The notes beneath the pieces were generated by a model that ran no database searches, had not been told where the DNA came from, and was given only the letters and a program-made list of their open reading frames with translations. A stretch of DNA of 37,583 nt from Prevotella sp. (GTDB taxonomy: Bacteria; Bacteroidota; Bacteroidia; Bacteroidales; Bacteroidaceae), in NCBI GenBank assembly GCA_017645905.1, contig JAGCNO010000006.1:1-37583 (forward strand). The letters run 5' to 3'. The number at the start of each line of letters is the position of its first letter. The stretch's first letter is position 1. The translations under genes were made by a program, and so were the position numbers. Below are positions 1,160-36,705 of this stretch, one piece after another.

Positions 1160-1269
1160 TTCTGGAAAAAGCCGTTCTTTCTTCTGGAAAAAGCCGTTCT
1201 TTCAATTCGAATAAGCCGTTCTTTCGATGGGAATAAGCCGTTCTTTCGATTCGAATAAGCCGTTCTTTC
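1160..1269 (-). repeat. 22-bp repeat cluster A (five units)
   Basis: Five head-to-tail 22-bp units on the minus strand, each with the 17-base core GAAAGAACGGCTTWTTC followed by five variable bases (in order GAATC, CCATC, GAATT, CAGAA, CAGAA). The first three units have A at the W position, the last two T. It follows the stop codon of the cytidylate-kinase-like gene in the same orientation. Unlike clusters B-F it lacks the usual closing unit. A degenerate half-unit continues to about 1140. Confidence 0.95.
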
Positions 1270-1277
1270 TTTCTGAG

Positions 1278-1305
1278 CGGAATCAGACAAGCGAGATTCC
1301 CTACT
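1278..1305. repeat. 28-bp flank repeat, copy 1
   Basis: Identical to 17842-17869 except for one base (C versus T at the seventh position). It abuts repeat cluster A and overlaps the stop codon of the cytidylate-kinase-like gene. The other copy abuts cluster C, on the opposite side of that cluster. Confidence 0.85.
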
Positions 1306-1927
1306 TTGGTGCGGAATTGCGCTGCTCGATGAACTGTGTGACGAACCGTGCAGTTTCCTCTATGCCGAGCATGGAGGAGTCGATGCAGAGGTGGTACGCG
1401 CTGGCTTGTCCCCAGTGCTTGCCGGTGTAGTAGTTGTAGTAGGCGGCGCGTCGGCTCTCGCCTTTCTCTATGATGTGGCGTGCCTCCTCGGGCGTACACT
1501 CGTGCTGTTGTGCCACGCGGTCGATGCGGAAGGGCAGCGGGGCGGTGACGAAGATGTTGACGCAGGTGGGGATATCGCGCAAAACGTAGTCGGCGCAGCG
1601 GCCCACGAACACACAGGGACCCTCTTCGGCGGCATGACGTATGGCGTCGCTCTGCAGCTGGAAGAAGCTGTCTTGAGAAAAACCTTGGCGAGAGGTGACG
1701 CCCATGGTCGAGGCCAGTCCGCCGGGGATGTGGAGGAACGTGCGGAAGAAGCTCTTGCTCTCGTCGTTCTGCTCTAAGAACCGCTCAGAGAGGCCGCTCT
1801 CACGTGCCGCCAGGTTGAGTATCTCGCGGTCGAAGTACCGGGCGTGGAAATGCTCGGCCAGCAGGTGGCCAATGTCGTGACCGCCAGAGCCGAGCTGGCG
1901 GCCGATGTTGATGATGAGATGGTTCAT
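1301..1927 (-). CDS. Cytidylate-kinase-like family protein (P-loop kinase)
   Basis: A 208-residue protein with an N-terminal P-loop of the cytidylate kinase 2 type (INIGRQLGSGGHDIGHLLAE, residues about 6-25), where a canonical GxxGxGK is replaced by GRQLGSGG. It then shows YFDREIL, and EGPCVFVGRCADYVL and NIFVTAPLPFRIDRV in the core. This family resembles bacterial CMP/dCMP kinases but is annotated only as kinase-like; substrate and role are not established. It is the last gene of the long minus-strand run, 12 bases after the glutamine synthetase stop. Its C-terminal codons and stop lie inside a dispersed 28-bp repeat, so the last few residues may be repeat-derived. The ATG start gives a normal P-loop spacing. 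Confidence 0.8.
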   Translation of the reverse strand: MNHLIINIGRQLGSGGHDIGHLLAEHFHARYFDREILNLAARESGLSERFLEQNDESKSFFRTFLHIPGGLASTMGVTSRQGFSQDSFFQLQSDAIRHAAEEGPCVFVGRCADYVLRDIPTCVNIFVTAPLPFRIDRVAQQHECTPEEARHIIEKGESRRAAYYNYYTGKHWGQASAYHLCIDSSMLGIEETARFVTQFIEQRNSAPK

Positions 1928-1939
1928 GTTCGCGATGAT

Positions 1940-3454
1940 TTATCCACAGTGGAAGTACTTGTTGACCAGCTTCTGAATTTCCTCGTGGAAGTTCTCGATG
2001 TTCTTGCGCAGTGAGGCATCGTCGAAGGCACGCAGCTGTGCAATGATGCCGTCAATCATGGCGGGCGAGAAGACGCCGTGCTCTTCGAAGACCTTGCGCT
2101 GGCGGTCGAGGCAGTCGGCCGACGCCACGCACGAGTCGGGCAGCTGTGCCAGCGTGTCCAGACGGTCGGCGTTCTCGGCAGCATGGATGTTCACGTTGAC
2201 GTAGGTCTTCTCGGCCACCTCCAGGGCATCCTCCATTTCGAAGCCGTGACGACAGGCCACGCACAGACCAGCCAACAGCTGGTAGAGGTCGGCCGAGCCG
2301 TCGGGCGAGCGCATCTCCACGGTCTGCTTCTCGGAAGTGAGGGGCGAGGGGTGTGTGGTGAGAGAGGTGTCCTGCGGGTTTGCCTTAGCGCACATGTTGG
2401 CATCGGCGGCCCATCCAAGCGGTACACGTACGAGCACGGAGCGGTTGCGGTCGCCCCAGCACACATTTGTCGGGGCCTCCTGATGAGGCACGAGACGGAA
2501 GTAGGACATGGGGTTCTTGTTGCCGAAGGCGGTGATGGCAGGGGCGAGGTCCATCATGCCGGCTATCATGCGGCGGGCGCTCTCCGAGAGCACTCCCCCG
2601 TCGAGCATCTGGTTGCGGCCGTCCTTCACCATGCGCATGTGGATGTGCAGGCCGGAGCCAGCCTTGCCGGTAGTGATTTTCGGAGCGAAGGTGATGTCGT
2701 AGCCCAGCTGGTAGCCCAGGTTGCGAATGACCCACTTGGCAATCATCAGCTGGTCGGCGGCCTGCTCCACAGGGACGGGGAGGAACTCTATCTCGTTCTG
2801 CTCGTAGTTGCGCCCGTCGAGGGTGAAGTTGCCTACCTCAGAGTGGCCGTACTTTATCTGTCCGCCAGCCTGGGCGATGTACTTCATGCATTGTGTGCGG
2901 AAGTCGCCACCCTTGGCATAGGGAGCCGACTCATGGTAGCCGCGCTGGTCTTCGGCAGGATAATAGCCCTCGTCGTCGCTGATGACGTAGTACTCCAGCT
3001 CACCCATGGCCTGAAACTCCATGCCGGTTGTCTCGCGAAAGGCCTTGGCGGCCTTGTGGAGGGTGTATTCAGGCGATGACTGCAGCGGCTGGCCGTCTTT
3101 GTCGAAGAAGGAGCAGAGCATGGTCAGCGTGGGGAGTTCGGCGAAGGGGTCTACGAAAGCGGTGCGGAAGCGGGGCAGCACGTAGAGGTCGCTGCTGCCG
3201 GCCTGGATGAAAGAGAAGAGGCTGGAACCGTCGACGCGCTCGCCCAGGGTGAGGATGGTGTCAAGGTAGGCCATGTCGTTCACCACGAAGTTGAGCGTCT
3301 TCAGACGGCCGTCACCGCCGGGATACATGAAGTTCACCATGCGGATGTCGTTCTCTACCATGTAGCGGATAATGTCGGCTTTTGTAAACTCGGCCGAGGG
3401 CTTCTGGAGGAACGCTACGATAGGATTAGCATTTAATGAATAGTTATCTGTCAT
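1940..3454 (-). CDS. glnA: Glutamine synthetase, type I-like
   Basis: A 504-residue ATP-dependent enzyme that makes glutamine from glutamate and ammonia. The N-terminal beta-grasp part is MVNFMYPGGDGRLKTLNFVV (about 39-58). Catalytic-domain motifs are MGELEYYV (150-157, metal-binding Glu), GSGLHIHMRM (267-276, catalytic His), NPMSYFRLVPHQEAPTNVCW (314-333), NRSVLVRVP (337-345) and VEMRSPDGSADLYQ (379-392). I chose the ATG at 3454 because a longer frame would run back through the upstream glycosylase gene, which ends 7 bases before. A variable loop at about 363-376 reads DTSLTTHPSPLTSE and is encoded by a C-rich 7-bp tandem repeat also found in proA and the GH97 at 15861. The gene continues the rmlB run and may also be expressed from elsewhere. 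Confidence 0.92.
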   Translation of the reverse strand: MTDNYSLNANPIVAFLQKPSAEFTKADIIRYMVENDIRMVNFMYPGGDGRLKTLNFVVNDMAYLDTILTLGERVDGSSLFSFIQAGSSDLYVLPRFRTAFVDPFAELPTLTMLCSFFDKDGQPLQSSPEYTLHKAAKAFRETTGMEFQAMGELEYYVISDDEGYYPAEDQRGYHESAPYAKGGDFRTQCMKYIAQAGGQIKYGHSEVGNFTLDGRNYEQNEIEFLPVPVEQAADQLMIAKWVIRNLGYQLGYDITFAPKITTGKAGSGLHIHMRMVKDGRNQMLDGGVLSESARRMIAGMMDLAPAITAFGNKNPMSYFRLVPHQEAPTNVCWGDRNRSVLVRVPLGWAADANMCAKANPQDTSLTTHPSPLTSEKQTVEMRSPDGSADLYQLLAGLCVACRHGFEMEDALEVAEKTYVNVNIHAAENADRLDTLAQLPDSCVASADCLDRQRKVFEEHGVFSPAMIDGIIAQLRAFDDASLRKNIENFHEEIQKLVNKYFHCG

Positions 3455-3461
3455 AAATGTA

Positions 3462-4088
3462 TTATATAATAGTTGTATTGAACATACGTCGGTAGGCCTC
3501 GGCTTTCTTTTCCAGCGACAGCGGATAGGCGCGAGAGGAGGAAGGCAGGCGGTAGAGCGTAATCTGTTCGCCGTCTTTATTGTAGATGCCGGGGATGGGT
3601 ACGGAGGTGCCGGTCTTTGGCGTTTCGGCAATGCCGAGTGTGGCGCAGATGGTGGCGGTGGCTTTCTCACCCGTGGTGGCGATGGCTCGCAGGTGAGGTA
3701 GCTGGCTTAGCAGGGCGGCGATGTCGGTGGGTTCGATCACCTCGAGGAACTTGTCGGAGGCATTGTCCTTTAGGCGGCGTATGGCCGTGGCGGTGTCATA
3801 GAAGGCAATACCCTTCTCCCGGCAGAAGGTTTCGATGTCGTCTTTTCTGAAGCGGCGTGCCGTCTGGTCTACGAAGTGCATAGGGTCGCCGAAGAACACC
3901 AGGCCCTCAATTCGCCAATGGTCGTTGGTGAAGTTGGGGTAGTAGAAGTCTATGCACCAGCGTTTCCGTTGTGGCGGGAAACTGCCCAGGAAGAGCACAC
4001 GGGCATTCTCGGGCAGGAAGGGACGTAGCGGGTGCCACTCCACTTCGTCGGTGCTGCGTGCGATATGCTCTGTGTGCAGGTAGTCCAT
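3462..4088 (-). CDS. Uracil-DNA-glycosylase superfamily protein
   Basis: A 208-residue protein with the fold signature of the UDG superfamily: RVLFLGSFPPQ (about 30-40) as the active-site loop, YYPNFTNDHW (49-58), and a late RAIATTGEKATATI strand-helix with the closing LPSSSRAYPLS loop. The GSFPP form resembles the family sometimes called hypoxanthine-DNA glycosylase (family 6) more than classical Ung, so the substrate (uracil, hypoxanthine or a mismatch) is open. It would remove a damaged base in base-excision repair in the cytoplasm. It sits 6 bases after the transferase gene and 7 before glutamine synthetase, so it is probably co-transcribed, although no functional link to those neighbours is obvious. 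Confidence 0.75.
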   Translation of the reverse strand: MDYLHTEHIARSTDEVEWHPLRPFLPENARVLFLGSFPPQRKRWCIDFYYPNFTNDHWRIEGLVFFGDPMHFVDQTARRFRKDDIETFCREKGIAFYDTATAIRRLKDNASDKFLEVIEPTDIAALLSQLPHLRAIATTGEKATATICATLGIAETPKTGTSVPIPGIYNKDGEQITLYRLPSSSRAYPLSLEKKAEAYRRMFNTTII

Positions 4089-4094
4089 GACGTC

Positions 4095-5045
4095 CTAAAT
4101 GTTGGTGTCAATCTGCCATTCGTAAGTGTCGTACATCACAGTACGCCCACCGTAGCCCTCCTTGTGGGCGATGAGCCCCTCGTTGAGGATGAGGCCGCCT
4201 TCCTCATTGCTGGTACCGAAGTCCAGATAGCGGATGTCTTTGAAGTCGCGGTACATCACCTGGTCGTAGATGGCCTCCATGGCGCCGAGCTGCTTGCCTG
4301 CATCGTTGGTGCCGCTGTACTGTCCGTGGAGCACGTGACCCATGACGTAGAAGGTAATGCCGCCTACAAGCTCGTCGCCAAGCCAGGCATTGTACTGGAT
4401 GATTTCGTTGGGGAATCGGCTCTTCAGCAGGAGGATCTCGTCGAGTGTATGCACGGAGTGGGCACCGAACTTCTGCTGCAGGTTGTCGTTCATCAGGGGC
4501 CAGAACGCCTCCAAACTGCCGTTGCGCTCCACACAGATACCGGCCTCCTGTGCCTGTTTAAGCCGTCGCCGGTGGTCTTTGCGCCAGCGCAGTCCGGCAT
4601 CCATGAAGATGACCGTTCCCGACATGCGCTGCTGTAGCCTTGCGCCGCACTTCCAGAACATGGCGTAGAGGTCTTCTTCTGCGGGCAGGCTGTGATAGAC
4701 CCAGGGGATGGCACGGTAAACCACCTTGCAGATGCCCTGCTTGCTAAGCCAGGCGTTCAGTTCTTCGAAAAGCACGAGCACGTCCGCCGTGCAGACCTCC
4801 TTGTCCATTATCAGACCGCCGTAGGTGAGGCCGTGATGCGAGAAAAGTGTGTTGCCCTCGATATTCGCCGGGAGCAGGGCGTAGAGCCTGCTACCCTTGA
4901 AGAAGAGCAGCGAGTAGTCGGCAAAGCGTTCGCTGTGGTAATCCATATAGTCGCGTCGGAAGAGGAACGTAGCGTTCTTAGACTTGGCGACGTAGAGGTC
5001 CCAGATGCGCTTGTCGGCAGGGGTGTAACGGCGGATTTCAAACAT
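4095..5045 (-). CDS. FemAB/GNAT-like acyltransferase
   Basis: A 316-residue protein with two GNAT-like halves, as in FemAB-type or Acetyltransf_6 proteins. The first half has FEIRRYTPADKRIWDLYVAK and a long insertion of substrate-binding type (SHHGLTYGGLIMD). The second half has AWLGDELVGGITFYVMGHVLHGQYSGTND and the characteristic tail YLDFGTSNEEGGLILNEGL with GLIAHKEGYGG. Family members transfer an acyl or aminoacyl group to amino sugars or peptidoglycan precursors. Two bases upstream is a dTDP-sugar ketoisomerase and then rmlB, so acylation of a dTDP-amino-sugar, or of a glycan containing it, is a reasonable inference; no aminotransferase is present to complete such a pathway here. Confidence 0.7.
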   Translation of the reverse strand: MFEIRRYTPADKRIWDLYVAKSKNATFLFRRDYMDYHSERFADYSLLFFKGSRLYALLPANIEGNTLFSHHGLTYGGLIMDKEVCTADVLVLFEELNAWLSKQGICKVVYRAIPWVYHSLPAEEDLYAMFWKCGARLQQRMSGTVIFMDAGLRWRKDHRRRLKQAQEAGICVERNGSLEAFWPLMNDNLQQKFGAHSVHTLDEILLLKSRFPNEIIQYNAWLGDELVGGITFYVMGHVLHGQYSGTNDAGKQLGAMEAIYDQVMYRDFKDIRYLDFGTSNEEGGLILNEGLIAHKEGYGGRTVMYDTYEWQIDTNI

Positions 5046-5047
5046 TA

Positions 5048-5452
5048 TTATGATGCTTTACTGCAGATTTGCAGGAACTCGTCGTAATCGTAAATATACT
5101 CCTGTTCGTCGAAGAACTCCGAGGCAAGGACGAGACAGACAGCACCAGAGGAGAAGTCCTCCAGCGTGCGCCAAACGTTAGTGCCTACGTAGAGGCCCTG
5201 ATAGGGGTGGTTCAGATGGAACGTCTGCCGCTCCTTTCCGTCGAAGACTTCCACATCGAAAGAGCCACTCACGGCGATGATAATCTCCTCGCAGGTGCGG
5301 TGGGCATGGCCGCCGCGCCGCTCGCCGCCCGGCACGTCATAGGTCCAGTAGACGCGGGCGATGTCGAAGGGGATGTTCTTCATCTGCTCCGCCACGGTGA
5401 GGTTGCCGCGTGGGTCAACGATTTTGGGGAGGTCAATCAGTGCATAGTTCAT
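5048..5452 (-). CDS. fdtA: dTDP-4-oxo-6-deoxyhexose 3,4-ketoisomerase (FdtA/WxcM-like cupin)
   Basis: A compact 134-residue cupin of the sugar-nucleotide 3,4-ketoisomerase family. Family marks are DPRGNLTVAEQ (13-23), RVYWTYDVPGGERRGGHAHR (33-52) with the two catalytic histidines at about 49 and 51, and YVGTNVWRTLEDFSSGAVCLVLAS near the C-terminus. FdtA, QdtA and TylM3-type enzymes convert dTDP-4-keto-6-deoxyglucose, the product of RmlB, into the 3-keto sugar that is then aminated. rmlB lies directly upstream (46 bases), which fits. Which epimer is made (FdtA versus QdtA) cannot be told from this reading, and no aminotransferase follows, so the pathway must be completed elsewhere. Confidence 0.82.
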   Translation of the reverse strand: MNYALIDLPKIVDPRGNLTVAEQMKNIPFDIARVYWTYDVPGGERRGGHAHRTCEEIIIAVSGSFDVEVFDGKERQTFHLNHPYQGLYVGTNVWRTLEDFSSGAVCLVLASEFFDEQEYIYDYDEFLQICSKAS

Positions 5453-5464
5453 AGTTCATGGATT

Positions 5465-5497
5465 GTTGCGATGGAATCGCAACTTAAAAGACGGGAC
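5465..5497. repeat. REP-like palindrome, copy 1 (intergenic, variant stem)
   Basis: GTTGCGAT (5465-5472), loop GGA, ATCGCAAC (5476-5483), spacer TTAAAA, box GACGGGAC (5490-5497). It has the same 8-3-8-6-8 layout as the copies at 17364 and 36201 but a completely different, still perfectly paired stem. It fills the gap between rmlB and the ketoisomerase gene. With no T-run it is not a normal terminator. Confidence 0.8.
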
Positions 5498-5498
5498 G

Positions 5499-6632: not shown

Positions 6633-6672
6633 ATTATTTTCGATTTACAAATTTTCGATTTACGATTTGTTA
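6632..6672. repeat. A/T-rich degenerate heptamer repeat
   Basis: The 37-base gap between rmlB and the 60-aa gene consists of roughly 7-bp repeats of the type CAAATCG, TAAATCG, GTAAATC (minus-strand reading). Similar runs occur at 13512-13556, 19645-19682 and 23464-23505. Confidence 0.6.
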
Positions 6673-6852
6673 GTTTTGCTCTTTCTTCTTCAGTCGGTTC
6701 CAAATTCCCAGGACGAACATCACAAGGAAGCACGTGCCGAAAGTAGTGGCGGCATCCTGTGTGGTTTTGTCCATGCCAATGATATAGAATAATAACGTGA
6801 CAACGGCCGAAACTATTGTGCAAATGGCGATTTCTACGAGGTATTGTTTCAT
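6670..6852 (-). CDS. Small two-helix membrane protein
   Basis: A 60-residue protein, MKQYLVEIAICTIVSAVVTL and onward, with two hydrophobic segments (about residues 5-26 and 37-53) separated by GMDKTTQDAATTFG and ending in a basic tail NRLKKKEQN. I placed the start at 6852 because this ATG overlaps the TGA stop of the upstream phosphoesterase in an ATGA junction, a sign of translational coupling; the longer frame would lie inside that gene. Small inner-membrane proteins of this kind are found in Bacteroidales but I do not recognise a named family, and no function is proposed. Confidence 0.75.
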   Translation of the reverse strand: MKQYLVEIAICTIVSAVVTLLFYIIGMDKTTQDAATTFGTCFLVMFVLGIWNRLKKKEQN

Positions 6853-7340: not shown

Positions 7341-7360
7341 GCTTGTTGTCTTTGCGGCCA

Positions 7361-7368
7361 CAAAGGTA
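7361..7368 (-). promoter_or_regulatory. -7 box upstream of the YfcE-like gene
   Basis: TACCTTTG on the minus strand, 20 bases upstream of the chosen ATG. A TTTG-like -33 element lies at 7385-7388 with a spacer shorter than usual (16 bases), so the upstream half is uncertain. Confidence 0.5.
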
Positions 7369-7434
7369 CAAAGAAATTATGAAACAAAAGCAGAATTACG
7401 TGCAAAACTTCATTTCTCCATTTAAACCTCTGGA

Positions 7435-7527
7435 GAAAGAACGGCTTTTTCCCATCGAAAGAACGGCTTATTCCCATCGAAAGAACGGCTTTTTCTTATG
7501 GAAAGAACGGCTTTTTCTCCGAGGGGG
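7435..7527 (+). repeat. 22-bp repeat cluster B
   Basis: Three full 22-bp units plus a closing unit on the plus strand. Variable bases after the core GAAAGAACGGCTTWTTC are CCATC, CCATC and TTATG, then the closing TCCGAGGGGG. The second unit has A at the W position. The cluster lies between divergent promoters (YfcE-like gene and sulP), so unlike the others it does not follow a gene on its own strand. The bases TGGA precede the first unit, as in clusters C and D. Confidence 0.95.
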
Positions 7528-17841: not shown

Positions 17842-17869
17842 CGGAATTAGACAAGCGAGATTCCCTACT
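17842..17869. repeat. 28-bp flank repeat, copy 2
   Basis: Matches 1278-1305 at 27 of 28 positions and directly abuts the closing unit of cluster C. It occupies the GH97 5' leader. Confidence 0.85.
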
Positions 17870-17871: not shown

Positions 17872-17954
17872 GAAAAAGCCGTTCTTTCGACTCGAAAAAG
17901 CCGTTCTTTCGATTTGAATAAGCCGTTCTTTCGATGGGAAAAAGCCGTTCTTTC
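17872..17954 (-). repeat. 22-bp repeat cluster C
   Basis: Minus-strand units in order: T-type with CCATC, A-type with AAATC, T-type with GAGTC, then the closing core followed by TCAGTAGGG. The bases TGGA precede the first unit. It lies after the ECF-fusion terminator and before GH97, on the same strand as both. Confidence 0.95.
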
Positions 17955-23165: not shown

Positions 23166-23270
23166 GAATAAGCCGTTCTTTCCATTCGAAAAAGCCGTTC
23201 TTTCGATTTGAATAAGCCGTTCTTTCGATGGGAAAAAGCCGTTCTTTCGATTTGAATAAACCGTTCTTGC
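23166..23270 (-). repeat. 22-bp repeat cluster D
   Basis: Minus-strand units in order: a degenerate A-type with AAATC, T-type with CCATC, A-type with AAATC, T-type with GAATG, then an A-type closing core followed by TCTGAAGGG. A remnant (TTATTCAAATCGAAAG) remains at 23310-23325. It lies between convergent genes, past the GH29 terminator in the GH29 direction. Confidence 0.95.
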
Positions 23271-23360
23271 TCCATTTCATTACGCAAGCGTCTCCTTCGT
23301 CGCCGAGCGCTTTCGATTTGAATAATGACCTTTTTGGTTTTATTCCTTATTGTATGTACA

Positions 23361-23417: not shown

Positions 23418-26400
23418 TTATTTTACGATGACCTTCCGGCCGTTGAGGATATAGATTCCCCTTGATAATTTATGATTTACTGATTTTCGATTTTCGATTT
23501 GTCGTCCTTGTAGGTCGTAGGTTTTGAGGTCTGAGGTTTTGGTGGTTTGAGTTTTGAAGTCGCTGACGGCGTTAGTGGTGTAATCGCCGAGGTATTCGAT
23601 GGTGAAGTGGTCGAACTTGCAGTCGTTGCTCGTGTAGTTCTTCAGCTCTACGCCGAGTGTGAGGTTGCCGTCGGTGATGTCGGTCTCTACGCTGGCGGTG
23701 TTGTCTGTGAGCTGGGTCATGTCGGCCTTCTGGTCGTTGGCGAAGAGGGATGCTCCCTGATGGATGACGCTGCTGCTGGTGCGTACGCTGATGCGGTATT
23801 TGCCGTTTGGCAGTCCTGTGACTTGCTGGCTGATGGAGCGGTCTGTGAGGTTGCCTGAGCCCTGCCACTTGTTGAAGTAGCTGGCGCCGACCTTGGCGGG
23901 AAGATAGTTGGCGTACTCACACTCGAAGGCATCGTCGCGCGAGAGCGTCCAGCCCACGGGCTGCTTGGCGTGGAAGTTGTTGTAGCGGGTGCCGTCGGCG
24001 TTGGTGATGACGTAGGAGATATCGACGGGGTTTTCTTCGCTGGCCTTCTCGAGGTTCTCTACGGCAGCGGCGTAGTTGCCTCGGAGGATGGCGTAGATGT
24101 CGTAGCGGCCTATGTTGTCGGTAGTGGCATCGGCGGTAATCTCGTCGGTACCGTCGTAGCGTCCCAGCGTTCCGCCCTTGTTGTTGGTCAGGGTCCAGTA
24201 ACCCGACGGAGATACGTCGGGCACGGTGGCGTAGGCGGCGCTGACATAGGCACGGTCTGTCCAGCCTTCGCCGTTGTTCTGGGTGCGGTAGTTCCAGTTG
24301 TTGGGGCTGTCGTTAGACTGCAGGCAGATGTCGGGGCTGCCGGCACAGGTGATGACGATCCACTTGGCGGCATTGCCCTTGGCGCCGGAGTAGTTGCTGG
24401 TGTTAAAGGCGTCGAAGGTCCACAGGGCGTCCTTGTTGCCCTCGGGATAGACATCGGCCTCATACCACATGGTTTTGTAGGCGGTACCCTGCTTATTGCC
24501 GGTGCCGAGGACGAGGCCGTTGTCCGTTCCGTGGTCGTAGATGGCGAAGAAGTACTGGCTAACATCTTCGGGCATGGCATCGATGAGCTGCCAGCCGTTG
24601 GCTTCGGGATGGCGCTCGCCGACCTCCTTCGGGGTATAGAGGGCCACTCGTTCGGCACGGAACTCCTGGGTGGCAGAGCCGTTAAGCAGGTTAGCCTGGA
24701 AGCCGATGTAGACCTCGGTCTCCTCGTCGAGCTGGAAGTAGAGGCCCAGAAGTTTCATGTCGCCAGTACAGCTGCTGATGGGATAGTAGGCAATGGCCTC
24801 GCTGGGGATGTCGGCGGTCTCGCTGAGCTGTGTGCTGACGAACATATAGGCCTGCTGGTTTATATTGTAGGTTGTGTTGTAGGCTGCTCCGAAGTAGTAC
24901 TTGCCGGCGGGCATCGTCACCTTGCGGTAGATGCGGGCGTTAGTGAGGCTTCCGTTGGTGTTTTGGCCTGCATCGTTCCACACGCCGAGCATCAGTGCCT
25001 CGTTGCCGCTGTACTTGTCCAGTCCATGCTTGGTGCCGTCGCCGCCGTTGGGGATGTTGAAGTTCTCCACCGTCCAGTAGGCAGGAACACCGAAGCGGCT
25101 GCTGCCACCGGCTGAGCGGGTGAAATTGCTGGCCTCAATAAGATACTGTGTGGTGAGGTTCTCGTCGATGACGCCGTTGAAGGCGCCACCCTTGTTCACG
25201 CCGTCGGCCTCAAAAGATTTATAGGCCTCGGCAAGCTTCTGACGGGCAGCGGTGACCTCCTCGTCGGTGGCGGTGGCGGGCACGGCCTTAGCCTTTTCGA
25301 TGGCGGCGCGCAGCTGGTCGAGCTTGCTGCTGTTAATCTTGCCGGTGTTGTAAGGATGGGTCATGGTGGCGAGGATGTCGGCGGTCTCTTCCATCTCGGT
25401 AATCATGTCCTGAAGCAGTTCGTAGGCGCTGCGGGTCTCGGCCATGAAGGTTATCTTAAACACGGGAGCGATGGCGTTGGGCTTTGTCGAGGGGACGGTG
25501 ACGCACAGACCCTGGAGGTCCTGTTCGAAGTCGATGTCGCCGTCGTAACCGAGCAGCTCGACCTTCTCCACGTCGCCGCTATAGGAATCCTCGGCCATGC
25601 CGAAAGCCTTGAAGGTGAACTCGCCGGCTGCCGGCCATGCCATGATGGTTGCGTAGACCGCGTCGTCCTTTGTGACATAGCGCACGTCCTGTGCCGAGTA
25701 GGCCTGTCCCTCGTTGAAGCCCTGAGCGTTCATGGGGTTGGCAGCCTCGGCCAGCGGACCTTCGCCGAAAGTCTTCCACACCCTTGTTCCGTAAATACTT
25801 TCGCTGTTAATATCGAGCCAGGCCTTGATGTCGGCCAGCACCTGGCGCTCACGATTGTCAATGGTACCGTTGCCCTTCACGGGGATGGAGACCAGCAGGT
25901 TTCCGTTCTTCGACACCACGTCGATGAGCATGCGGATGACGGTAGCGCCGCTCTTATAACCATTATTATTATAGACGTTCTGGTCGTAGTGCCACTGGCC
26001 GATGCAGGTGCAGGTCTGCCAGTAGTTCTCCTGCGGACGGTCGGGGATGCCGCGCTCCACGTCCCACAGCATGTAACCCTTCTGCTGGTCGTTGAGCTGC
26101 TTGCCCGTGACCACCACCTGCTGTTGGCCGCCGTGATTGGCAGCACTGTGGTTGTAATAGTGCTGCAGGATGTTCTTTCCGATATTGTCGTCGCAGCCAT
26201 AGAACGGCATGGCGGTGTCGTCAAAATAAATCATGTCGGGGTCATAGTCGTTGATGAGTTCCAGCACACGATTCTGGAACTTCTGCTTGTAGGCCGTCGA
26301 GGGCAGGCTGGCGCCGTTGCCCCAGTCCCACTGACTGTGGATGGTGCCGCTGCTCTCCCAGCCCGTCGAATGGGTGTGGTTCTGAGCATACAGCTCCTGC

Positions 26401-27026
26401 GGATCCATTCCTTCCCACCACTTGCCGGTACCGTCTTCTTTTGTCAGGTTGCCATCAAACTTCTGCGAGGGCTCCAGCCATGTCCAGGCATGCGAGGCGT
26501 GGATGGAGACACCAAGGGGCAGCCCCTCCTTCTTGCAAGCCTCGGCCCAGCCACCGATGAGGTCCTTCTTCGGTCCTACGTTCACGGAGTTCCACTCCTG
26601 ATAGGGCGAGTTCCAGTTGTCGAAGTTGTCGTGGTGGTTGCCCAGGGCCATGAAGTAGCGGGCACCCACGCTCTTGTAGAGGCTCACCAGTTCCTCGGGA
26701 TTCCACTTGTCGGCCTTCCAGGCGTTGCAGAGGTCTTTCAGTCCGAAGGTGCTGGGATTGCCGAAATGGCTCACGTGATAGTTGTACTGTCCGCTGCCCT
26801 CATAATACATGAAGCGGGCGTACCAGTCACCGTCTTCGGCCTGGCACTGCGGGCCCCAGTGTGCCCAGATGCCGAACTTTGCGTCCTTGAACCACTCGGG
26901 GCACTCCCACTGGCTGAGTGACTCCCAGTCATTACCAAACGTGCCCGTCTCAACGGCCACATTCTCTGTCTGTGCGCTGACCGACATTGTAAATGCCGTC
27001 ATCAGCAAGGTAAAAAGCTTTTTCAT
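23418..27026 (-). CDS. Multidomain secreted GH29 alpha-L-fucosidase
   Basis: A 1202-residue exported enzyme expected to release L-fucose from glycans. Signal peptide MKKLFTLLMTAFTMSVSAQ. The GH29 domain spans about 35-450: WFKDAKFGIWAHWGPQCQ, YFMALGNHHDNFDNWNS and NDYDPDMIYFDD, where Asp269 is the likely nucleophile. A helical FIVAR-like segment (about 540-620), a carbohydrate-binding-like beta domain (about 635-800), a ricin- or lectin-like region (about 815-1000) and a second binding-like beta domain (about 1020-1150) follow. The end has DLQGRQIENRKSVNHKLS then RGIYILNGRKVIVK, a Por-type sorting tail whose linker comes from an A/T heptamer repeat. It is divergent from the AraC gene. Two long frames on the opposite strand are shadows. 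Confidence 0.92.
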   Translation of the reverse strand: MKKLFTLLMTAFTMSVSAQTENVAVETGTFGNDWESLSQWECPEWFKDAKFGIWAHWGPQCQAEDGDWYARFMYYEGSGQYNYHVSHFGNPSTFGLKDLCNAWKADKWNPEELVSLYKSVGARYFMALGNHHDNFDNWNSPYQEWNSVNVGPKKDLIGGWAEACKKEGLPLGVSIHASHAWTWLEPSQKFDGNLTKEDGTGKWWEGMDPQELYAQNHTHSTGWESSGTIHSQWDWGNGASLPSTAYKQKFQNRVLELINDYDPDMIYFDDTAMPFYGCDDNIGKNILQHYYNHSAANHGGQQQVVVTGKQLNDQQKGYMLWDVERGIPDRPQENYWQTCTCIGQWHYDQNVYNNNGYKSGATVIRMLIDVVSKNGNLLVSIPVKGNGTIDNRERQVLADIKAWLDINSESIYGTRVWKTFGEGPLAEAANPMNAQGFNEGQAYSAQDVRYVTKDDAVYATIMAWPAAGEFTFKAFGMAEDSYSGDVEKVELLGYDGDIDFEQDLQGLCVTVPSTKPNAIAPVFKITFMAETRSAYELLQDMITEMEETADILATMTHPYNTGKINSSKLDQLRAAIEKAKAVPATATDEEVTAARQKLAEAYKSFEADGVNKGGAFNGVIDENLTTQYLIEASNFTRSAGGSSRFGVPAYWTVENFNIPNGGDGTKHGLDKYSGNEALMLGVWNDAGQNTNGSLTNARIYRKVTMPAGKYYFGAAYNTTYNINQQAYMFVSTQLSETADIPSEAIAYYPISSCTGDMKLLGLYFQLDEETEVYIGFQANLLNGSATQEFRAERVALYTPKEVGERHPEANGWQLIDAMPEDVSQYFFAIYDHGTDNGLVLGTGNKQGTAYKTMWYEADVYPEGNKDALWTFDAFNTSNYSGAKGNAAKWIVITCAGSPDICLQSNDSPNNWNYRTQNNGEGWTDRAYVSAAYATVPDVSPSGYWTLTNNKGGTLGRYDGTDEITADATTDNIGRYDIYAILRGNYAAAVENLEKASEENPVDISYVITNADGTRYNNFHAKQPVGWTLSRDDAFECEYANYLPAKVGASYFNKWQGSGNLTDRSISQQVTGLPNGKYRISVRTSSSVIHQGASLFANDQKADMTQLTDNTASVETDITDGNLTLGVELKNYTSNDCKFDHFTIEYLGDYTTNAVSDFKTQTTKTSDLKTYDLQGRQIENRKSVNHKLSRGIYILNGRKVIVK

Positions 27027-30160: not shown

Positions 30161-30166
30161 GCTCAG

Positions 30167-30193: not shown

Positions 30194-30197
30194 GTTT

Positions 30198-30309
30198 GAA
30201 CGGCTTTCTCTCATAGAAAGAACGGCTTTTTCGGGTGGAAAGAACGGCTTATTCAAATCGAAAGAACGGCTTTTTCTGGTCGAAAGAACGGCTTTTTCTC
30301 CGAGAGGGG
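30198..30309 (+). repeat. 22-bp repeat cluster E
   Basis: A degenerate opening unit (ends CTCTCATA), then T-type with GGGTG, A-type with AAATC, T-type with TGGTC and the closing core followed by TCCGAGAGGGG. It lies downstream of the GH29 gene, same strand. Confidence 0.95.
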
Positions 30310-30366
30310 CTAAATGCAGCCCAACGGCAAGTCTGCAGAAGCCACTGAAAGAAGAGCGATTTATTT

Positions 30367-30424
30367 CTCCCACGTTTCACAACCTTCTTGTTTTGTTGCA
30401 ACTGAAGAAAGTGAAACGTGGGAG
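30367..30424. repeat. 14-bp perfect inverted repeat upstream of the esterase
   Basis: CTCCCACGTTTCAC (30367-30380) and GTGAAACGTGGGAG (30411-30424) with a 30-base loop that itself contains TTCTT and AAGAA. It ends 24 bases before the -7 box of the esterase gene, so it is upstream of the transcript and more likely an operator or a repeat element than an RNA structure. Confidence 0.7.
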
Positions 30425-30448
30425 GTCTATATTTATATAGGTTTAAAG

Positions 30449-30456
30449 TATCTTTG
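30449..30456 (+). promoter_or_regulatory. -7 box of the xylan cluster
   Basis: TATCTTTG, 17 bases upstream of the ATG at 30473, without a clear -33 element; the inverted repeat at 30367-30424 covers the place where one would be. Confidence 0.5.
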
Positions 30457-30472
30457 TCGGAAAAATGAAAGA

Positions 30473-31651: not shown

Positions 31652-31656
31652 ATCTA
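31636..31656. repeat. A-rich heptamer repeat at the esterase 3' end
   Basis: About three copies of AAACAAT, supplying the final codons and stop of the esterase gene. Same unit as at 10728-10766. Confidence 0.7.
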
Positions 31657-31662
31657 AATTAT

Positions 31663-33078
31663 ATGAACAACAATCAAGAAAAAGGCTTTTACAAGCTGTC
31701 GTGGGTGCAGCGCATCGGCTTTGGTGCCGGCGACCTGGCCCAGAATCTGATTTATCAGACCATCTGTATGTATCTGCTGTTCTTCTACACCGATGTCTAT
31801 GTGCTCGGTGGCGATGCAGCAAAGTCCGCCGGACTGGCCGGAACGATGTTCCTTGTCGTCCGTCTCGTCGACGTGCTCTGGGATCCCCTCGTGGGCACCT
31901 TCGTCGACAAGCATAATCCCAGCCTGGGTAAGTACCGCAGCTATCTGATTACTGGCGGTATTCCCCTCACCATCCTGGCCATTCTCTGCTTTTGGGATGG
32001 CTTTGCACCTTCGATTATCTATGCCTACCTGACCTACGTGGGCATGTCGATGCTCTACACGCTGATTAACGTGCCCTACGGTGCCCTGAACTCCTCGCTG
32101 ACCCGTGACACGGACGAAATCACCATCCTGACTTCCGTCCGTATGTTCATGGCCAACGTCGGCGGTCTGGCCGTGTCGGCCGGTGTGCCCATCCTCGTGG
32201 CTATCTTCGCCTCGTCAGAGACACTGCCTATCGAGATGGCCCTGTTCATGGGTCTCGGCTCGCTGCCCTCGTTCATCTTCATGCCGCTGGTACCTGCCAT
32301 CAAGAAGAAGGTGGGCAAGAAGAATATGTTCTACATCTTCCTTACCGTCGCCATCATCGGCATGGCCCTGCTCTATGTCATTAGTAAGATGGGCACGGTG
32401 AAGGAGAACATCACACTGGTCTACATTGCACAGTTCATCAAGTCGACAGGTGTCATCGTTGCCACGGGTTACATGTGGGCACTCATTCCCGAGGTTATCT
32501 CCTACGCCGAGTACACCACGGGCCGCCGCATCGCCGGTATCGTGAACGCCCTGACGGGTATCTTCTTCAAGGCCGGTATGGCCCTGGGCGGTGTTGTTCC
32601 CGGACTGGTGCTGGCTATGACCAACTATGTGCCTGCCGAGGAGGCTACTACGCTGCCGAAGGACTCTGGAGCCTGGTTCACCACCATGCTCATCTACTCG
32701 CTTATCGGTCTCGCCCTGCTCATCTTCTGCTTCTCGCAGACCAAGGAGCGCGTCGTCATGGACCAGTCGGAGTCGGCCAACGTGAAGGTCAGCGACCTTT
32801 GGATGGAGTTCATGCGTAACCGTCCGTTGCGCATCATCGCCCTCTTCTTCATTACGGCCTTCGCCATGATGAGTGTGGGTAATGCCGCCGGTGCTTACTT
32901 CATGAACGACCTTGAGCTGCAGGATCCTCTCGCACAGGAGGGCATCCGCTGGCTCGTCTGTGTCATCCCCGCCATCCTCCTCGTAGTCGCCATGTTCATC
33001 ATTTCTAAGTATGAACTGACTGATGAGAAGATCGATAAGATTAACAAGGAAATCGAGGCACGCTCAGCCGCTGAGTAA
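31663..33078 (+). CDS. xynD: GPH-family sodium:glycoside symporter (MFS)
   Basis: A 471-residue inner-membrane transporter with about 12 hydrophobic segments. The N-terminus LSWVQRIGFGAGDLAQNLIY is characteristic of the glycoside-pentoside-hexuronide:cation symporters (MelB, XylP, XynB transporters), with RLVDVLWDPLVGTFVDKHNP and NVPYGALNSSLTRD as the family motifs. Position between a xylan esterase and a GH10/GH43 pair points to xylosides or xylo-oligosaccharides, as for XynD of P. bryantii. Its ATG is 11 bases past the esterase stop, so the two are one operon. The C-terminus is followed by the left inverted repeat of the GxxExxY cassette. Confidence 0.9.
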   Translation: MNNNQEKGFYKLSWVQRIGFGAGDLAQNLIYQTICMYLLFFYTDVYVLGGDAAKSAGLAGTMFLVVRLVDVLWDPLVGTFVDKHNPSLGKYRSYLITGGIPLTILAILCFWDGFAPSIIYAYLTYVGMSMLYTLINVPYGALNSSLTRDTDEITILTSVRMFMANVGGLAVSAGVPILVAIFASSETLPIEMALFMGLGSLPSFIFMPLVPAIKKKVGKKNMFYIFLTVAIIGMALLYVISKMGTVKENITLVYIAQFIKSTGVIVATGYMWALIPEVISYAEYTTGRRIAGIVNALTGIFFKAGMALGGVVPGLVLAMTNYVPAEEATTLPKDSGAWFTTMLIYSLIGLALLIFCFSQTKERVVMDQSESANVKVSDLWMEFMRNRPLRIIALFFITAFAMMSVGNAAGAYFMNDLELQDPLAQEGIRWLVCVIPAILLVVAMFIISKYELTDEKIDKINKEIEARSAAE

Positions 33079-33097
33079 TTGACTGAGACACGGATTG

Positions 33098-33141
33098 TTT
33101 TTTGGACACTGATTGGACTGATTTAACTGATTGGACTGATT
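33098..33141 (+). repeat. Left inverted repeat of the GxxExxY cassette
   Basis: A T-run, then GACACTGATTGGACTGATT, continuing as a 9-bp periodic array of ACTGATTGG-type units (four units). Its first 19 bases are the exact reverse complement of the outer part of 33540-33582. Confidence 0.9.
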
Positions 33142-33147
33142 AATGGT

Positions 33148-33549
33148 ATGGAATACCTGTATTCTCAGGAAACGGGCGAGATTCTTAAGGCATTTTACGA
33201 TGTCTATAACGAATTGGGATATGGGTTCCTTGAAAGGGTATACAAGAATGCGCTATATAAGGAGTTGAAAAAGCGAGGCTTTAACTGTAGCACAGAACAC
33301 CACATACCTGTCTATTATAAGGGAGAAATGGTCGGTGACTTCTATGCAGACATCATCATCGACGATAAGATTGTTTTAGAGTTGAAGGCTGTTAAAACCA
33401 TAGCTCCTGAGCATGAGGCACAATTGATGAACTATCTTCGTGCCACAGATGCCGAAGTTGGTCTGCTATTGAACTTTGGTCCTGAACCTCAGCAACGTCG
33501 TATCGTATTCACCAACGACCGTAAGAAAAACCATTTCAAAAATCAGTAA
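33148..33549 (+). CDS. GxxExxY protein, PD-(D/E)XK_3 nuclease-like
   Basis: A 133-residue protein. The naming motif is GFLERVY (26-32). The PD-(D/E)XK core reads GDFYADIIIDDKIVLELKAV, with Asp68, Glu78 and Lys80 as the likely metal and catalytic residues, and QLMNY (92-96) matches the QxxxY motif of RecB-like nucleases. Family members are common and often multicopy in Bacteroidota, but their role is unknown. GC is about 40-42% on the lines I counted, versus about 58-63% in the flanking symporter and xylanase genes, a clear sign of separate origin. The last codons (KNQ stop) lie in the right inverted repeat. No promoter is evident; it may be read through from the xylan operon. Confidence 0.88.
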   Translation: MEYLYSQETGEILKAFYDVYNELGYGFLERVYKNALYKELKKRGFNCSTEHHIPVYYKGEMVGDFYADIIIDDKIVLELKAVKTIAPEHEAQLMNYLRATDAEVGLLLNFGPEPQQRRIVFTNDRKKNHFKNQ

Positions 33550-33582
33550 AATCAGTCCAATCAGTCCAATCAGTGTCAAAAA
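33540..33582 (-). repeat. Right inverted repeat of the GxxExxY cassette
   Basis: Reverse complement reads GACACTGATTGGACTGATT then further ACTGATT units. It overlaps the stop codon of the GxxExxY gene and ends 27 bases before the xylanase ATG. Confidence 0.9.
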
Positions 33583-33609
33583 GAAGAAATAATCATCATT
33601 GCTAAAATC

Positions 33610-34725
33610 ATGAAGAATAGATTATTATCAGTGGCAGCGGTCCTTATGGGTGTCCTGCTTATGAGTACTACAACAGTGGCTCAGGGGTTGAAAGACGCCA
33701 TCGGTAAGTACTGCCTCATCGGTGCGGCCATTAACCAGTGGCAGAGCGACGGACAGGTGCCCGAGGCCGATGCGGTGATGGACAAGCACTTTAACTGTGC
33801 CGTGGCCGAGAACTGCATGAAGCCGGAGTCACTGGCTCCCGCAGAGGGCATCTTCGATTTCCGTGTGGCCGACAAGTTCGTTGCTTACTGCCAGCAACAT
33901 AACCTGAAAGCGCTGGGCCATTGCCTTGTATGGCACTCACAGGCTCCCGACTGGTGGTTCACCAACGGCTATACGGCCAGTCCCGCCTCGAAGGAAGTGC
34001 TGCGCGAGCGGCTCATCAAGCACATCAAGACCGTCGTGGGCCACTATAAAGGGCAGGTGCATGGCTGGGACGTGGTGAACGAGGCTATCAACGACGACGG
34101 TTCCTTCCGCCAGTCGCCTTACTACAAGCTGCTGGGCGAGGAGTTCTTCGAGATAGCTTTCCGTACTGCTCATGAGGCCGACCCCGATGCCGAGCTCTAC
34201 TACAACGATTACTCCATGGCCGGCGAGAAGAAGCGCGAGGCTGTTTGCCGACTGGTGAAGAACCTCAAGGCGAAGGGTCTGCGCATCGACGGCGTGGGTA
34301 TGCAGAGCCACAACGGCCTGGACTATCCAAACCTTGCGGAGTACGAGAAAAGCATCGACGCCTTCGCTGCCTGTGGCGTGAAGGTGATGATTACCGAGCT
34401 GGATATCAATGTCCTACCCAACCCCGAGGGTTTCAGTGGTGCCGACATCGCCCAGAACTTCGAACTGCAGCAGAAGTTTAACCCCTACATCGCCGGTCTC
34501 CCCGTAGCCAAGCAGAAGGCACTGGACGACCGATGGCTCGCTCTCTTCAATATCTACTATAAGCACCGTTCGCAGATATCCCGAATCAACCTCTGGGGAG
34601 TCAGCGACGGCGGTTCTTGGCTCAACGGCTGGCCCATCAAGGGACGTACCAACTATCCCCTGCTCTTCGATCGCCAGTACAAGGCCAAGCCCGTAGTCGA
34701 CAAAATAATCAACCTCTACCAATAA
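33610..34725 (+). CDS. xynA: GH10 endo-1,4-beta-xylanase
   Basis: A 371-residue exported enzyme with signal peptide MKNRLLSVAAVLMGVLLMST ending TTVAQ. A single GH10 barrel: LGHCLVWHSQAPDWWF (102-117), the acid/base in WDVVNEAIND (Glu158) and the nucleophile in VMITELDINV (Glu263), with the closing NLWGVSDGGSWLNGWPI. It cuts internal xylosidic bonds in xylan by a retaining mechanism. It corresponds in position to xynA in Prevotella xylanase clusters. It is separated from the symporter only by the GxxExxY cassette, which probably interrupts an ancestral symporter-xylanase operon. It is followed by a promoter and a strong hairpin. Confidence 0.95.
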   Translation: MKNRLLSVAAVLMGVLLMSTTTVAQGLKDAIGKYCLIGAAINQWQSDGQVPEADAVMDKHFNCAVAENCMKPESLAPAEGIFDFRVADKFVAYCQQHNLKALGHCLVWHSQAPDWWFTNGYTASPASKEVLRERLIKHIKTVVGHYKGQVHGWDVVNEAINDDGSFRQSPYYKLLGEEFFEIAFRTAHEADPDAELYYNDYSMAGEKKREAVCRLVKNLKAKGLRIDGVGMQSHNGLDYPNLAEYEKSIDAFAACGVKVMITELDINVLPNPEGFSGADIAQNFELQQKFNPYIAGLPVAKQKALDDRWLALFNIYYKHRSQISRINLWGVSDGGSWLNGWPIKGRTNYPLLFDRQYKAKPVVDKIINLYQ

Positions 34726-34776
34726 CCATTCGAAGGCCAAACGAAATCTGTTGATTCCAAAAAAACGATGATTTTG

Positions 34777-34808
34777 TTTGGCGGTTACAGAAATTATCCG
34801 TAACTTTG
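34777..34808 (+). promoter_or_regulatory. Promoter upstream of the GH43 gene
   Basis: TTTG at 34777-34780, exactly 20 bases, TAACTTTG at 34801-34808, an ideal Bacteroidota promoter. The hairpin at 34810 begins immediately after it. Confidence 0.75.
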
Positions 34809-34809
34809 C

Positions 34810-34843
34810 ACCTGCGCCAATAAACCAGTGGCGCAGGTTTTTT
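34810..34843 (+). terminator. Strong hairpin with T-run directly after the promoter
   Basis: ACCTGCGCCA (34810-34819) / TGGCGCAGGT (34829-34838), a perfect 10-bp stem followed by TTTTTT. It can end transcripts of the xylanase gene, or act on transcripts from the promoter just upstream. The GH43 ATG is about 80 bases further on. Confidence 0.85.
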
Positions 34844-34921
34844 CAATAAGGCCGGATACAAACCGGCAGAAGTGACGGAACGATTGTGAAATATTTATTA
34901 ATACTTTAATTCTTAAGAACT

Positions 34922-35953
34922 ATGAAACCAAGGTATTTATTCCCGAGTGATTACATGGCCGACCCTGCGGCCCACGTGTTTAATGGCAAGCTCTACATCT
35001 ATCCGAGCCATGACCGCGAGTGCGAGAATGTGTTCGACGATGACGGCGGCCATTTCCAGATGCGTGATTACCATGTGCTCTCCTTTGACGATGTGGAGAA
35101 CGGCCCCGTGACTGACCACGGTGTCATTCTTGATCAAGACCAGGTGGCCTGGGTGCAGAACCAGATGTGGGACAGTGACGTGGTGGAGAAGGACGGCAAG
35201 TATTACCTTGTCTTCTCGGCCAAAGACTACAACGGAGAGTTCCATCTCGGTGTGGCCATCGCCGATAAGCCCGAAGGCCCGTTCGTCCCGCAGGAGCATC
35301 CCATCCGCGGTGCCTACAGCATCGACCCTTGCATGTTCAAGGACGACGATGGTAAGATTTACTGCTACTACGGAGGACTGTGGGGCGGACAGCTGCAGTG
35401 GCACGTGCCTCTGAGCGTGAATCCTGTGATGCAACCCGACACCGAGGCTGCTCCCGCCGGCTATGTCGACATAGGCCATGCCTCTGACAAGAAGACCGAG
35501 CTGTGGGCTCCCGCTGACGTTCCTGCTTTGTCGAGCTATGTTGCCAAGATGAGCGACGACGTGCTGCAGTTCACCGAGGCCCCGCGCCCAGTGGTCATTA
35601 TCGACAAGGACGGCCTGCCGCTGAAGGCCGGTGACCCGCATCGCTTCTTCGAGGCCTCGTGGATGCACAAGTACAACGGCAAGTACTACTTCTCTTACTC
35701 GACCGGCGACAGCCACTTCCTCTGCTATGCCACGGGCGACAACCCCTACGGCCCGTTCACCTATCAGGGCGTGTTGCTCGACCCCGTCGTGGGCTGGACG
35801 ACGCACCACTGCATCGTGGAGTTCAAGGGCCAGTGGTACCTGCTCTATCACGACTGCGTGCCCTCAAACGACGTGACCCACCTGCGCTCGCTGAAGGTGC
35901 AGCGCCTGTTCTACCGCGAGGACGGAACGATAGAGAAGGTAGTAAACGAATAA
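34922..35953 (+). CDS. xynB: GH43 beta-xylosidase / alpha-L-arabinofuranosidase
   Basis: A 343-residue five-bladed beta-propeller enzyme without a signal peptide, so cytoplasmic, acting on imported xylo-oligosaccharides. The three carboxylates of GH43 are visible: Asp14 in YMADPAAHVF (base), Asp135 in YSIDPCMFKDDDGK (pKa modulator) and Glu244 in RFFEASWMHKYNGKYYF (acid). The symporter upstream would supply its substrate, and this matches XynB of the P. bryantii cluster. Whether it prefers xylose or arabinose cannot be read. It is served by its own promoter at 34777 plus possible read-through. The next gene starts 7 bases after it. Confidence 0.93.
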   Translation: MKPRYLFPSDYMADPAAHVFNGKLYIYPSHDRECENVFDDDGGHFQMRDYHVLSFDDVENGPVTDHGVILDQDQVAWVQNQMWDSDVVEKDGKYYLVFSAKDYNGEFHLGVAIADKPEGPFVPQEHPIRGAYSIDPCMFKDDDGKIYCYYGGLWGGQLQWHVPLSVNPVMQPDTEAAPAGYVDIGHASDKKTELWAPADVPALSSYVAKMSDDVLQFTEAPRPVVIIDKDGLPLKAGDPHRFFEASWMHKYNGKYYFSYSTGDSHFLCYATGDNPYGPFTYQGVLLDPVVGWTTHHCIVEFKGQWYLLYHDCVPSNDVTHLRSLKVQRLFYREDGTIEKVVNE

Positions 35954-35960
35954 CAAGAGA

Positions 35961-36599
35961 ATGGCGCTGATCAGTATTGAGGAAGTGTGCGAGGGCGTTC
36001 GTTTGGGTCTTTGGCGTATGGACGAAGAGCCAGAGGAACTGCTCGCACACTTCCCCTATCTGCGCTGTTTCGAGTGCCCCTATAAACATTCGGCCCGGCG
36101 TAAGGAGTTCTACAGTGTGCGAGCCCTGCTGATAGCGATGACCAGCGACCCGGAGCTGTGCATAGACCACGTGGAGAGCGGGCGGCCCGTCGTATCAGGG
36201 CGGGGATTAGAAATCCCCGAGAAAAGACGGGACACCGGGGCCGGCTGGCAGGTGAGCATCAGCCACACGAAGGGCTATGCCGCGCTCATGCTTTCTCGCG
36301 ACAAGGCCGTAGGGGTGGACATTGAGTACCGCTCAGACCGGGTGGCAAAGATTGCCGCGCACTATATCCGCCCAGATGAAAAGGCCGGGACCGTAGAGCA
36401 GATGCTTGTGCTGTGGTGTGCCAAGGAAACACTCTACAAGCTCCACTCCGACGACCGTCTGGATTATTTCGAGATGCGCGCCGTAGCCCCTCCCAACGGG
36501 AACGAGCTGATGCTGGAAAACATAAAGCGCGGCCAGCAAGTGAAAGTACACGTCATACCAGCCCCAGACTATGTGCTCACCTGGGCTGTGGACTTTTAA
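35961..36599 (+). CDS. 4'-phosphopantetheinyl transferase superfamily protein
   Basis: A 212-residue enzyme of the Sfp/AcpS-like superfamily, which loads the phosphopantetheine arm of CoA onto carrier proteins. The motifs are present: GVDIEYRSDRV (118-128, with Asp120 and Glu122 for magnesium) and LWCAKETLYK (151-160), plus VSISHTKGYAALML (98-111). Between GRPVVSG and WQVSISHTK lies a 13- to 15-residue insert RGLEIPEKRRDTGAG (81-95) that comes from a REP-like palindrome at 36201-36236; it keeps the frame. It lies 7 bases after the GH43 gene, probably by co-transcription without functional relation. Its stop codon overlaps the degenerate opening unit of cluster F. Confidence 0.88.
   Translation: MALISIEEVCEGVRLGLWRMDEEPEELLAHFPYLRCFECPYKHSARRKEFYSVRALLIAMTSDPELCIDHVESGRPVVSGRGLEIPEKRRDTGAGWQVSISHTKGYAALMLSRDKAVGVDIEYRSDRVAKIAAHYIRPDEKAGTVEQMLVLWCAKETLYKLHSDDRLDYFEMRAVAPPNGNELMLENIKRGQQVKVHVIPAPDYVLTWAVDF
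36201..36233. repeat. REP-like palindrome, copy 4 (inside the PPTase gene)
   Basis: CGGGGATT (36201-36208), loop AGA, AATCCCCG (36212-36219), spacer AGAAAA, GACGGGAC (36226-36233). It is in frame, sense orientation, adding RGLEIPEKRRDTG to the protein. Same stem as copy 3, different loop and spacer. Confidence 0.85.
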
Positions 36600-36705
36600 C
36601 GGTTTCCTCTCATCGAAAGAACGGCTTTTTCCCATGGAAAGAACGGCTTATTCAAATCGAAAGAACGGCTTTTTCGAATCGAAAGAACGGCTTTTTCTCT
36701 GAGAG
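36598..36705 (+). repeat. 22-bp repeat cluster F
   Basis: A degenerate opening unit ending CTCTCATC, then T-type with CCATG, A-type with AAATC, T-type with GAATC and the closing core followed by TCTGAGAG. The unit order matches clusters C and E. It starts at the stop codon of the PPTase gene and lies in the leader of the GH97 gene. Confidence 0.95.

Follow-up and report, generated by a model that had tools for sequence, protein, structure and literature searches.

Arrays of a 22-bp unit are dispersed through a Prevotella genome

The draft genome of a Prevotella species (assembly GCA_017645905.1, 3.40 Mb in 181 contigs, here called G000) carries roughly 240 short arrays of a 22-bp tandem unit whose pitch is kept where its sequence is not. 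Six of these arrays lie in the stretch given above, positions 1 to 37,583 of contig JAGCNO010000006.1 (our contig C95), which we refer to as the window. The unit, which we call U, consists of a 17-bp core, GAAAGAACGGCTTWTTC, and a 5-bp variable linker. We read the arrays, tentatively and at a little less than an even chance, as a non-autonomous, dispersed, mosaic intergenic repeat of one rumen Prevotella-type species that would act as DNA and that resembles the miniature inverted-repeat transposable elements (MITEs), bacterial interspersed mosaic elements (BIMEs) and BOX elements of other bacteria.

The six clusters that an earlier, sequence-only reading had described in the window are real and do share one core: 26 copies of GAAAGAACGGCTTWTTC are found there at up to 3 mismatches, 25 of them exact and one with 2 mismatches. 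The 22-bp period holds as well, and Tandem Repeats Finder calls all six clusters as 22-bp arrays. By core search, array A (five units) lies at 1165..1269 on the minus strand, array C (four units) at 17872..17954 on the minus strand, array D (five units, the first degenerate with 2 mismatches) at 23166..23270 on the minus strand, and array F (four units, with CTCTCATC ahead of the array) at 36615..36697 on the plus strand. The same search together with our gene calls places array B (four units) between divergent genes, at 7435..7517 on the plus strand. Array E, a degenerate first unit followed by four exact units, is at 30194..30298 on the plus strand.

Genome-wide, we found 1001 cores at up to 2 mismatches, compared to 16 for the reversed pattern, and 912 compared to 0 at up to 1 mismatch, so the family is not due to chance; double units number 659, with none in the control. 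For closer study we sampled 582 kb of this genome in 41 stretches, with the window among them, of which the first 20 were picked at contigs with core matches and 20 further ones mostly blind. The sample contains 55 arrays with 228 units. At this average of 4.1 units per array the 1001 cores correspond to roughly 240 arrays, or about one per 14 kb, which is sparser than the one per 6 kb proposed from the window. Confinement to the window region is excluded.

The family is species-specific. Its double unit occurs in none of 392 other genomes of the order, and a core search in 39 relatives (23 of the same genus) gave one single core, at 1 mismatch, in one genome. A search of 72,556 plasmid records and 50,697 phage records gave no match to array F. 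Viral contigs have cores only singly, in 21 stretches, and never two together; we take these single cores as chance. On these grounds we rejected a plasmid or phage origin.

The pitch is constant and the linkers are not

Neighboring cores in G000 are exactly 22 bp apart in 149 of 160 cases, the others being 43 bp (3), 44 bp (4) or 66 bp (4) apart. This count took cores with up to 3 mismatches lying less than 70 bp from each other, and assumed no register. Linkers were also listed separately, with units joined where they lay less than 120 bp from each other. Each of the 167 simple linkers on that list has 5 bases, and they differ from each other at a mean of 2.9 of the 5 bases; the cores deviate from their consensus by 4.7%. 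We conclude with confidence that length is kept where sequence is not.

The same pitch is seen in three relatives: at 81 of 82 spacings in G010, 52 of 53 in G416, and 43 of 52 in G004 (where 8 others are 44 bp and one is 23 bp).

Unit order, ends and accompanying modules

Arrays in the G000 sample have 2 to 7 units, and 33 of the 55 have four. The sequence-only reading held that T-type and A-type units follow a fixed order. In the window they largely do, with T-A-T in five of the six arrays and the A unit followed by AAATC in four of the six. The order breaks down in the wider sample: in the 32 clean four-unit arrays the commonest pattern is TTTT (9), TATT accounts for 5 (3 of them in the window) and eleven other patterns make up the rest, and outside the window T-A-T occurs in only 11 of 46 arrays with at least three units. 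Unrelated unit orders across the genome were the outcome that the reading itself had named as speaking against it, and the result counts against a fixed order. The six window arrays are more alike than six random arrays (p = 0.008). Near-neighbor arrays in general are not (47 near pairs, p = 0.108), and without the window near pairs score 0.525 and far pairs 0.539. The unit order in the window is a local trait of the window.

The related proposal, that whole elements have been dispersed without local expansion of the arrays, survives in its first half. Recurrent ends flank many arrays, with CTCRGA before the array in 16 of 55 and TCYGAG after it in 16 of 55 (up to 1 mismatch), against a chance rate that we calculated by hand as about 0.8% per end. 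Because of these recurrent ends and the preferred size of four, some copying of whole elements is likely. However, linkers within one array resemble each other beyond chance (of 2000 shuffles, 12 matched the observed likeness of linkers 1 and 2, 20 that of linkers 1 and 3, and none that of linkers 2 and 3), and therefore units have also been gained or homogenized locally.

These results bear on two alternatives. One is that slippage made the arrays grow where they stand, as neutral minisatellites; the likeness of linkers within an array speaks for it. We consider this highly improbable in view of one family occupying some 240 dispersed sites, the preferred size of four, a linker length without drift, and the same pitch in relatives. 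The other is that they are MITEs moved through their inverted ends by an ordinary insertion sequence (IS) transposase, with the tandem units as passengers, as has been proposed for the BrickBuilt element. The frequency of CTCRGA ahead and TCYGAG behind agrees with this, as do other recurrent inverted flanks that we saw by eye in G010 and G004. Yet only 4 of the 55 arrays have both ends, we saw no target-site duplication by eye (no search was made for an IS with these ends), and the rigid 22-bp pitch would be left unexplained; we regard this alternative as quite unlikely.

Besides its units the element includes two modules. One, the palindrome P (AAATTCTCKAGAGAATT), has 8 copies in the sample (a raw count of 16, each palindrome being read on both strands), and all 8 are within 60 bp of an array. 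The other, module Q, is 44 bp long, and 11 of its 12 copies are equally close to an array. Both keep the 22-bp register of the arrays (8 of 8 for P and 9 of 11 for Q), and the two Q copies out of register stand behind another inserted repeat. In the window, Q lies beside array D at 23271..23314 on the minus strand, abutting it in register and filling two 22-bp slots.

Some other sequences are seen near arrays. Module R, AGACAAGCGAGATTCCCTA, sits inside a GGAAT/ATTCC inverted repeat and has 10 copies in the 582 kb, 5 of them within 60 bp of an array; two are in the window, beside array A (1285..1303, plus strand) and array C (17849..17867, plus strand). The sequence CGCTCCGCTAAATGA followed by GAGAAAT repeats comes directly after the arrays starting at L092:8567, L095:3576 and L097:14516 (3 of its 6 sample copies are beside arrays). 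Cores in opposite orientations also occur within one array, joined directly at 22 bp at L089:1985, and via palindrome P at 43 bp at L158:2140 and L159:9411.

Arrays lie between genes without regard to strand

With genes called by our own open-reading-frame scorer (419 genes), 51 of the 55 sampled arrays are intergenic. In the window, five of six arrays follow a gene in the same orientation, as had been noticed, but this does not extend to the genome sample, where the array has the strand of its upstream gene in 23 of the 50 cases with an upstream gene in view. We therefore rejected an attachment to mRNA 3' ends. Divergent gaps hold 14 of 52 arrays and convergent gaps 5 of 52, compared to 35 and 16 of 154 background gaps of at least 120 bp; each kind of gap, tandem ones included, has arrays roughly in proportion to its occurrence. 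This lack of preference for strand or type of gap argues for a role, or tolerance, as DNA rather than RNA.

An RNA element, in the form of hairpins in 3' untranslated regions or of small RNAs, is accordingly something that we consider very unlikely. In its favor, arrays of G010 and G004 are predicted to fold well beyond shuffled sequences (mean z on the two strands -5.0 and -5.4 in G010, and -4.6 and -5.1 in G004). Both strands fold alike, however, as they would for any palindrome, predicted folding is weak in G000 (-1.7 and -2.6, for the first 40 of the 55 arrays), strand preference is absent, and an Rfam search of the window gave no match to a known RNA family.

Other species have 22-bp families of their own

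In 45 blindly chosen stretches from congeners (796 kb), 11 of the 27 tandem repeat events with a period between 14 and 33 bp have a period of exactly 22, the next most frequent period being 21 with 5 events. Eight genomes contribute these 11 events, whose sequences differ. In a wider set of stretches, which overlaps the blind one, 10 of 49 events with periods from 10 to 60 bp have period 22 and 7 have period 44.

Genome-wide searches show that some of these are dispersed families in their own right. G010 has a sister family with 194 double units (control 0), in arrays of 3 to 5 units among 28 arrays; G004 has 26 double units (control 0), arranged mostly as inverted pairs; G416 has 188 units (control 0), and the count for G417 is 16. 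The result for G006 is weak (13, compared to 5 in the control). The double-unit pattern used for G010, G004 and G006 is palindromic, so one strand was counted. Stretches from G010, G004, G006 and G416 were picked around matches, and the arrays in them do not represent those genomes at random. In the counts of spacings and of reverse-complement neighbors one G004 array enters twice, through the overlapping stretches L140 and L198, which leaves 23 different ones. In three genomes related at the family level we found no 22-bp event in 100 kb, which is too little to exclude one.

By eye, the cores of G000 (on the other strand), G004, G010 and L001 look related and that of G416 does not; such a resemblance would be what concerted evolution of an old family gives. 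Array D lies in the 3' gap of the gene at 23418-27026, whose protein has its best relatives in Prevotella and Prevotellaceae records, most of them assemblies from rumen metagenomes; this is our ground for the term Prevotella-type. Only 3 of 31 loci have a 22-bp array in this gap, namely the window itself, L001 (11815-11890) and L002 (10154-10287), each with a different sequence, and we rejected a conserved position of the arrays.

A HUH protein family is near some arrays

The arrays could be an element like the repetitive extragenic palindromic (REP) sequences, spread by a tyrosine (HUH, Y1) transposase of the kind of the REP-associated tyrosine transposases (RAYTs). G000 encodes HUH proteins at L098:987-1724 (minus strand), L091:19003-19998 (plus strand), L090:15284-16312 (plus strand) and L266. 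Some 130 residues are added at their C terminus, a tail with GAVLVSPAISKGE-like and GRLLILAP-like motifs that may be reminiscent of DprA/Rossmann proteins; most of the tail is missing from the L098 copy. The protein at L098:987-1724 matches REP_Tyr_transpos with an E-value of 9.4e-12, although its 45 bits fall short of the curated cut-off of 80, and an alignment of 12 HUH proteins shows no variation in DHxH and a tyrosine. A U array is found beside two of the four HUH loci, about 116 bp upstream at L091 and abutting the 3' end at L090. Around 34 HUH loci of other genomes we counted 7 nearby events with a period of 22-23 bp where 2.05 were expected (p = 0.005, a post hoc comparison). A paper on the superfamily describes subclass 2.6 as mostly in Bacteroidetes, with atypical secondary structures at its flanks (PMC6006769).

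Against this, the other two HUH loci of G000 (C40 and L266) lack a core, the core has no GTAG tag, and one of the seven events (L219) looks like low-complexity sequence. The family (profile A1) was not found in 8 of the 18 genomes searched, among them the array-bearing G003, G004, G010, G416 and G422, and it therefore cannot be needed to keep the repeats. It may have been their founder, but overall we consider spread by a RAYT-like transposase unlikely.

Symmetry and a possible mechanism

Twenty-two base pairs make two turns of the helix. A-tracts in the arrays recur every 11 bp, with a power of 0.197 in G000 (0.031 when shuffled), 0.331 in G010 and 0.356 in G004. The cores of G004 and G010 are dyad-symmetric, and their neighbors match as reverse complements more than expected by chance (z = 4.0 and 2.6). 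Some G000 linkers come in reverse-complement pairs, such as TCATA (26 copies) and TATGA (8), CCATC (17) and GATGG (6), and AAATC (11) and GATTT (6); these are counts to which we attach no significance figure. The slot at position -1 beside arrays is more palindromic in phase (2.98, compared to about 2, with degenerate U units still included).

Under the reading we favor, the family is one of a class that several related species have with sequences of their own, and a unit array would line up its sites along one face of the helix, each exactly two turns from the next. These sites would be recognized by a protein, which might be a transposase, making the arrays a selfish element, or a nucleoid-type protein, giving them a function for the host. 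Copies would spread as whole elements, units would then be gained, lost and homogenized locally, and the family would drift species by species while the pitch stayed. The recognizing protein, the mobility and any benefit to the cell are parts of this scheme that we infer.

Several observations weigh against it. The symmetry of the units is only partial: the dyad of G000 is imperfect (p = 0.24 and 0.58 in whole-unit tests, and p ≤ 0.05 for 5 of 26 units picked by hand), G416 gives p = 0.98 and has no A-tracts, the linkers TGGTA (6) and TTATA (4) have no TACCA or TATAA partners, and an in-register test gave no palindrome other than U (0 at phase 0, with a filter that also drops U-like palindromes). 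The 22-bp period itself partly forces the phasing of the A-tracts, since 11 bp is one of its harmonics. Neither the two flanks of an array nor its linkers 1 and 3 covary, and we therefore rejected one large hairpin built by pairing either set. When cores with up to 4 mismatches are admitted, 2 of 176 spacings (50 and 69 bp) fall off the 22-bp ladder. To these we add the scarcity of arrays with both recurrent ends; no empty site and no second strain of the species was found.

A broader proposal is that Prevotella-type bacteria share, across the genus, an architectural system to which the arrays belong and whose conserved feature is the pitch. A factor gauging two helical turns would maintain hundreds of short arrays while the site sequence turns over in each species, much as in eukaryotic satellite DNA and its binding proteins. 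We think this somewhat unlikely. 

Several species of one genus have spacing and array size, but not sequence, in common, which points either to selection for a geometry or to a mechanism that makes arrays by a ruler of its own. What REP-like repeats do becomes testable by altering the linker spacing, and the arrays could serve as ready species markers for rumen metagenomes.

Comparison with known repeats

As a rule, sequence is what defines a dispersed repeat of bacteria. As far as searches of open papers reach, a pitch common to species with different sequences is new. We found no report of these arrays in open papers, an absence that is weakly supported, some literature searches being empty or swamped by unrelated papers.

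The unit here is half as long as the unit of BOX (boxB). Like the BOX elements of Streptococcus pneumoniae, as they appear in the accessible text on them (PMC3049150), the arrays are modular dispersed repeats in which a variable number of tandem internal modules may stand between end modules. They have no fixed end modules of that size, and they come from another phylum.

REP sequences and BIMEs with their RAYTs, going by the available parts of two papers (PMC3733652, PMC6006769), are also short, intergenic, species-specific palindromic units that form mosaics in hundreds of copies, and the inverted pairs in G004 add to the likeness. In contrast, the G000 core, as read from its sequence, has no GTAG, CGTC or their complements, its units run head-to-tail instead of alternating, and the HUH gene was not found in five array-bearing relatives. 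Clustered regularly interspaced short palindromic repeats (CRISPR), described in the part of one of these papers open to us as repeats of 24-48 bp with long unique spacers (PMC3733652), are ruled out by the 17-bp cores, the 5-bp linkers and the many arrays.

By analogy, the closest known system is BrickBuilt, a MITE of Porphyromonas gingivalis. The accessible text of its description gives 23-nt tandem units in 19 copies of up to 22.8 repeats, with a long leader and tail and ends like those of IS5-family elements, and refers to 22-nt repeats that others had reported from strain W83, at places that it does not give there (PMC4596501). Our family differs in its 22-nt unit (a 23-nt unit is not seen, given 22 bp at 149 of 160 spacings), its sequence, its copy number of about 240, its usual four units and its short ends. 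A shared long leader or tail is also not seen; at the distances sampled, repeated sequence less than 200 bp from the array occurs in at most 10 (upstream) or 12 (downstream) of 55 cases. The two agree in being dispersed, intergenic Bacteroidales elements limited to one species (here 51 of 55 arrays between genes, and 0 of 392 other genomes), with tandem units of similar length that combine a conserved and a variable part, and with inverted ends.

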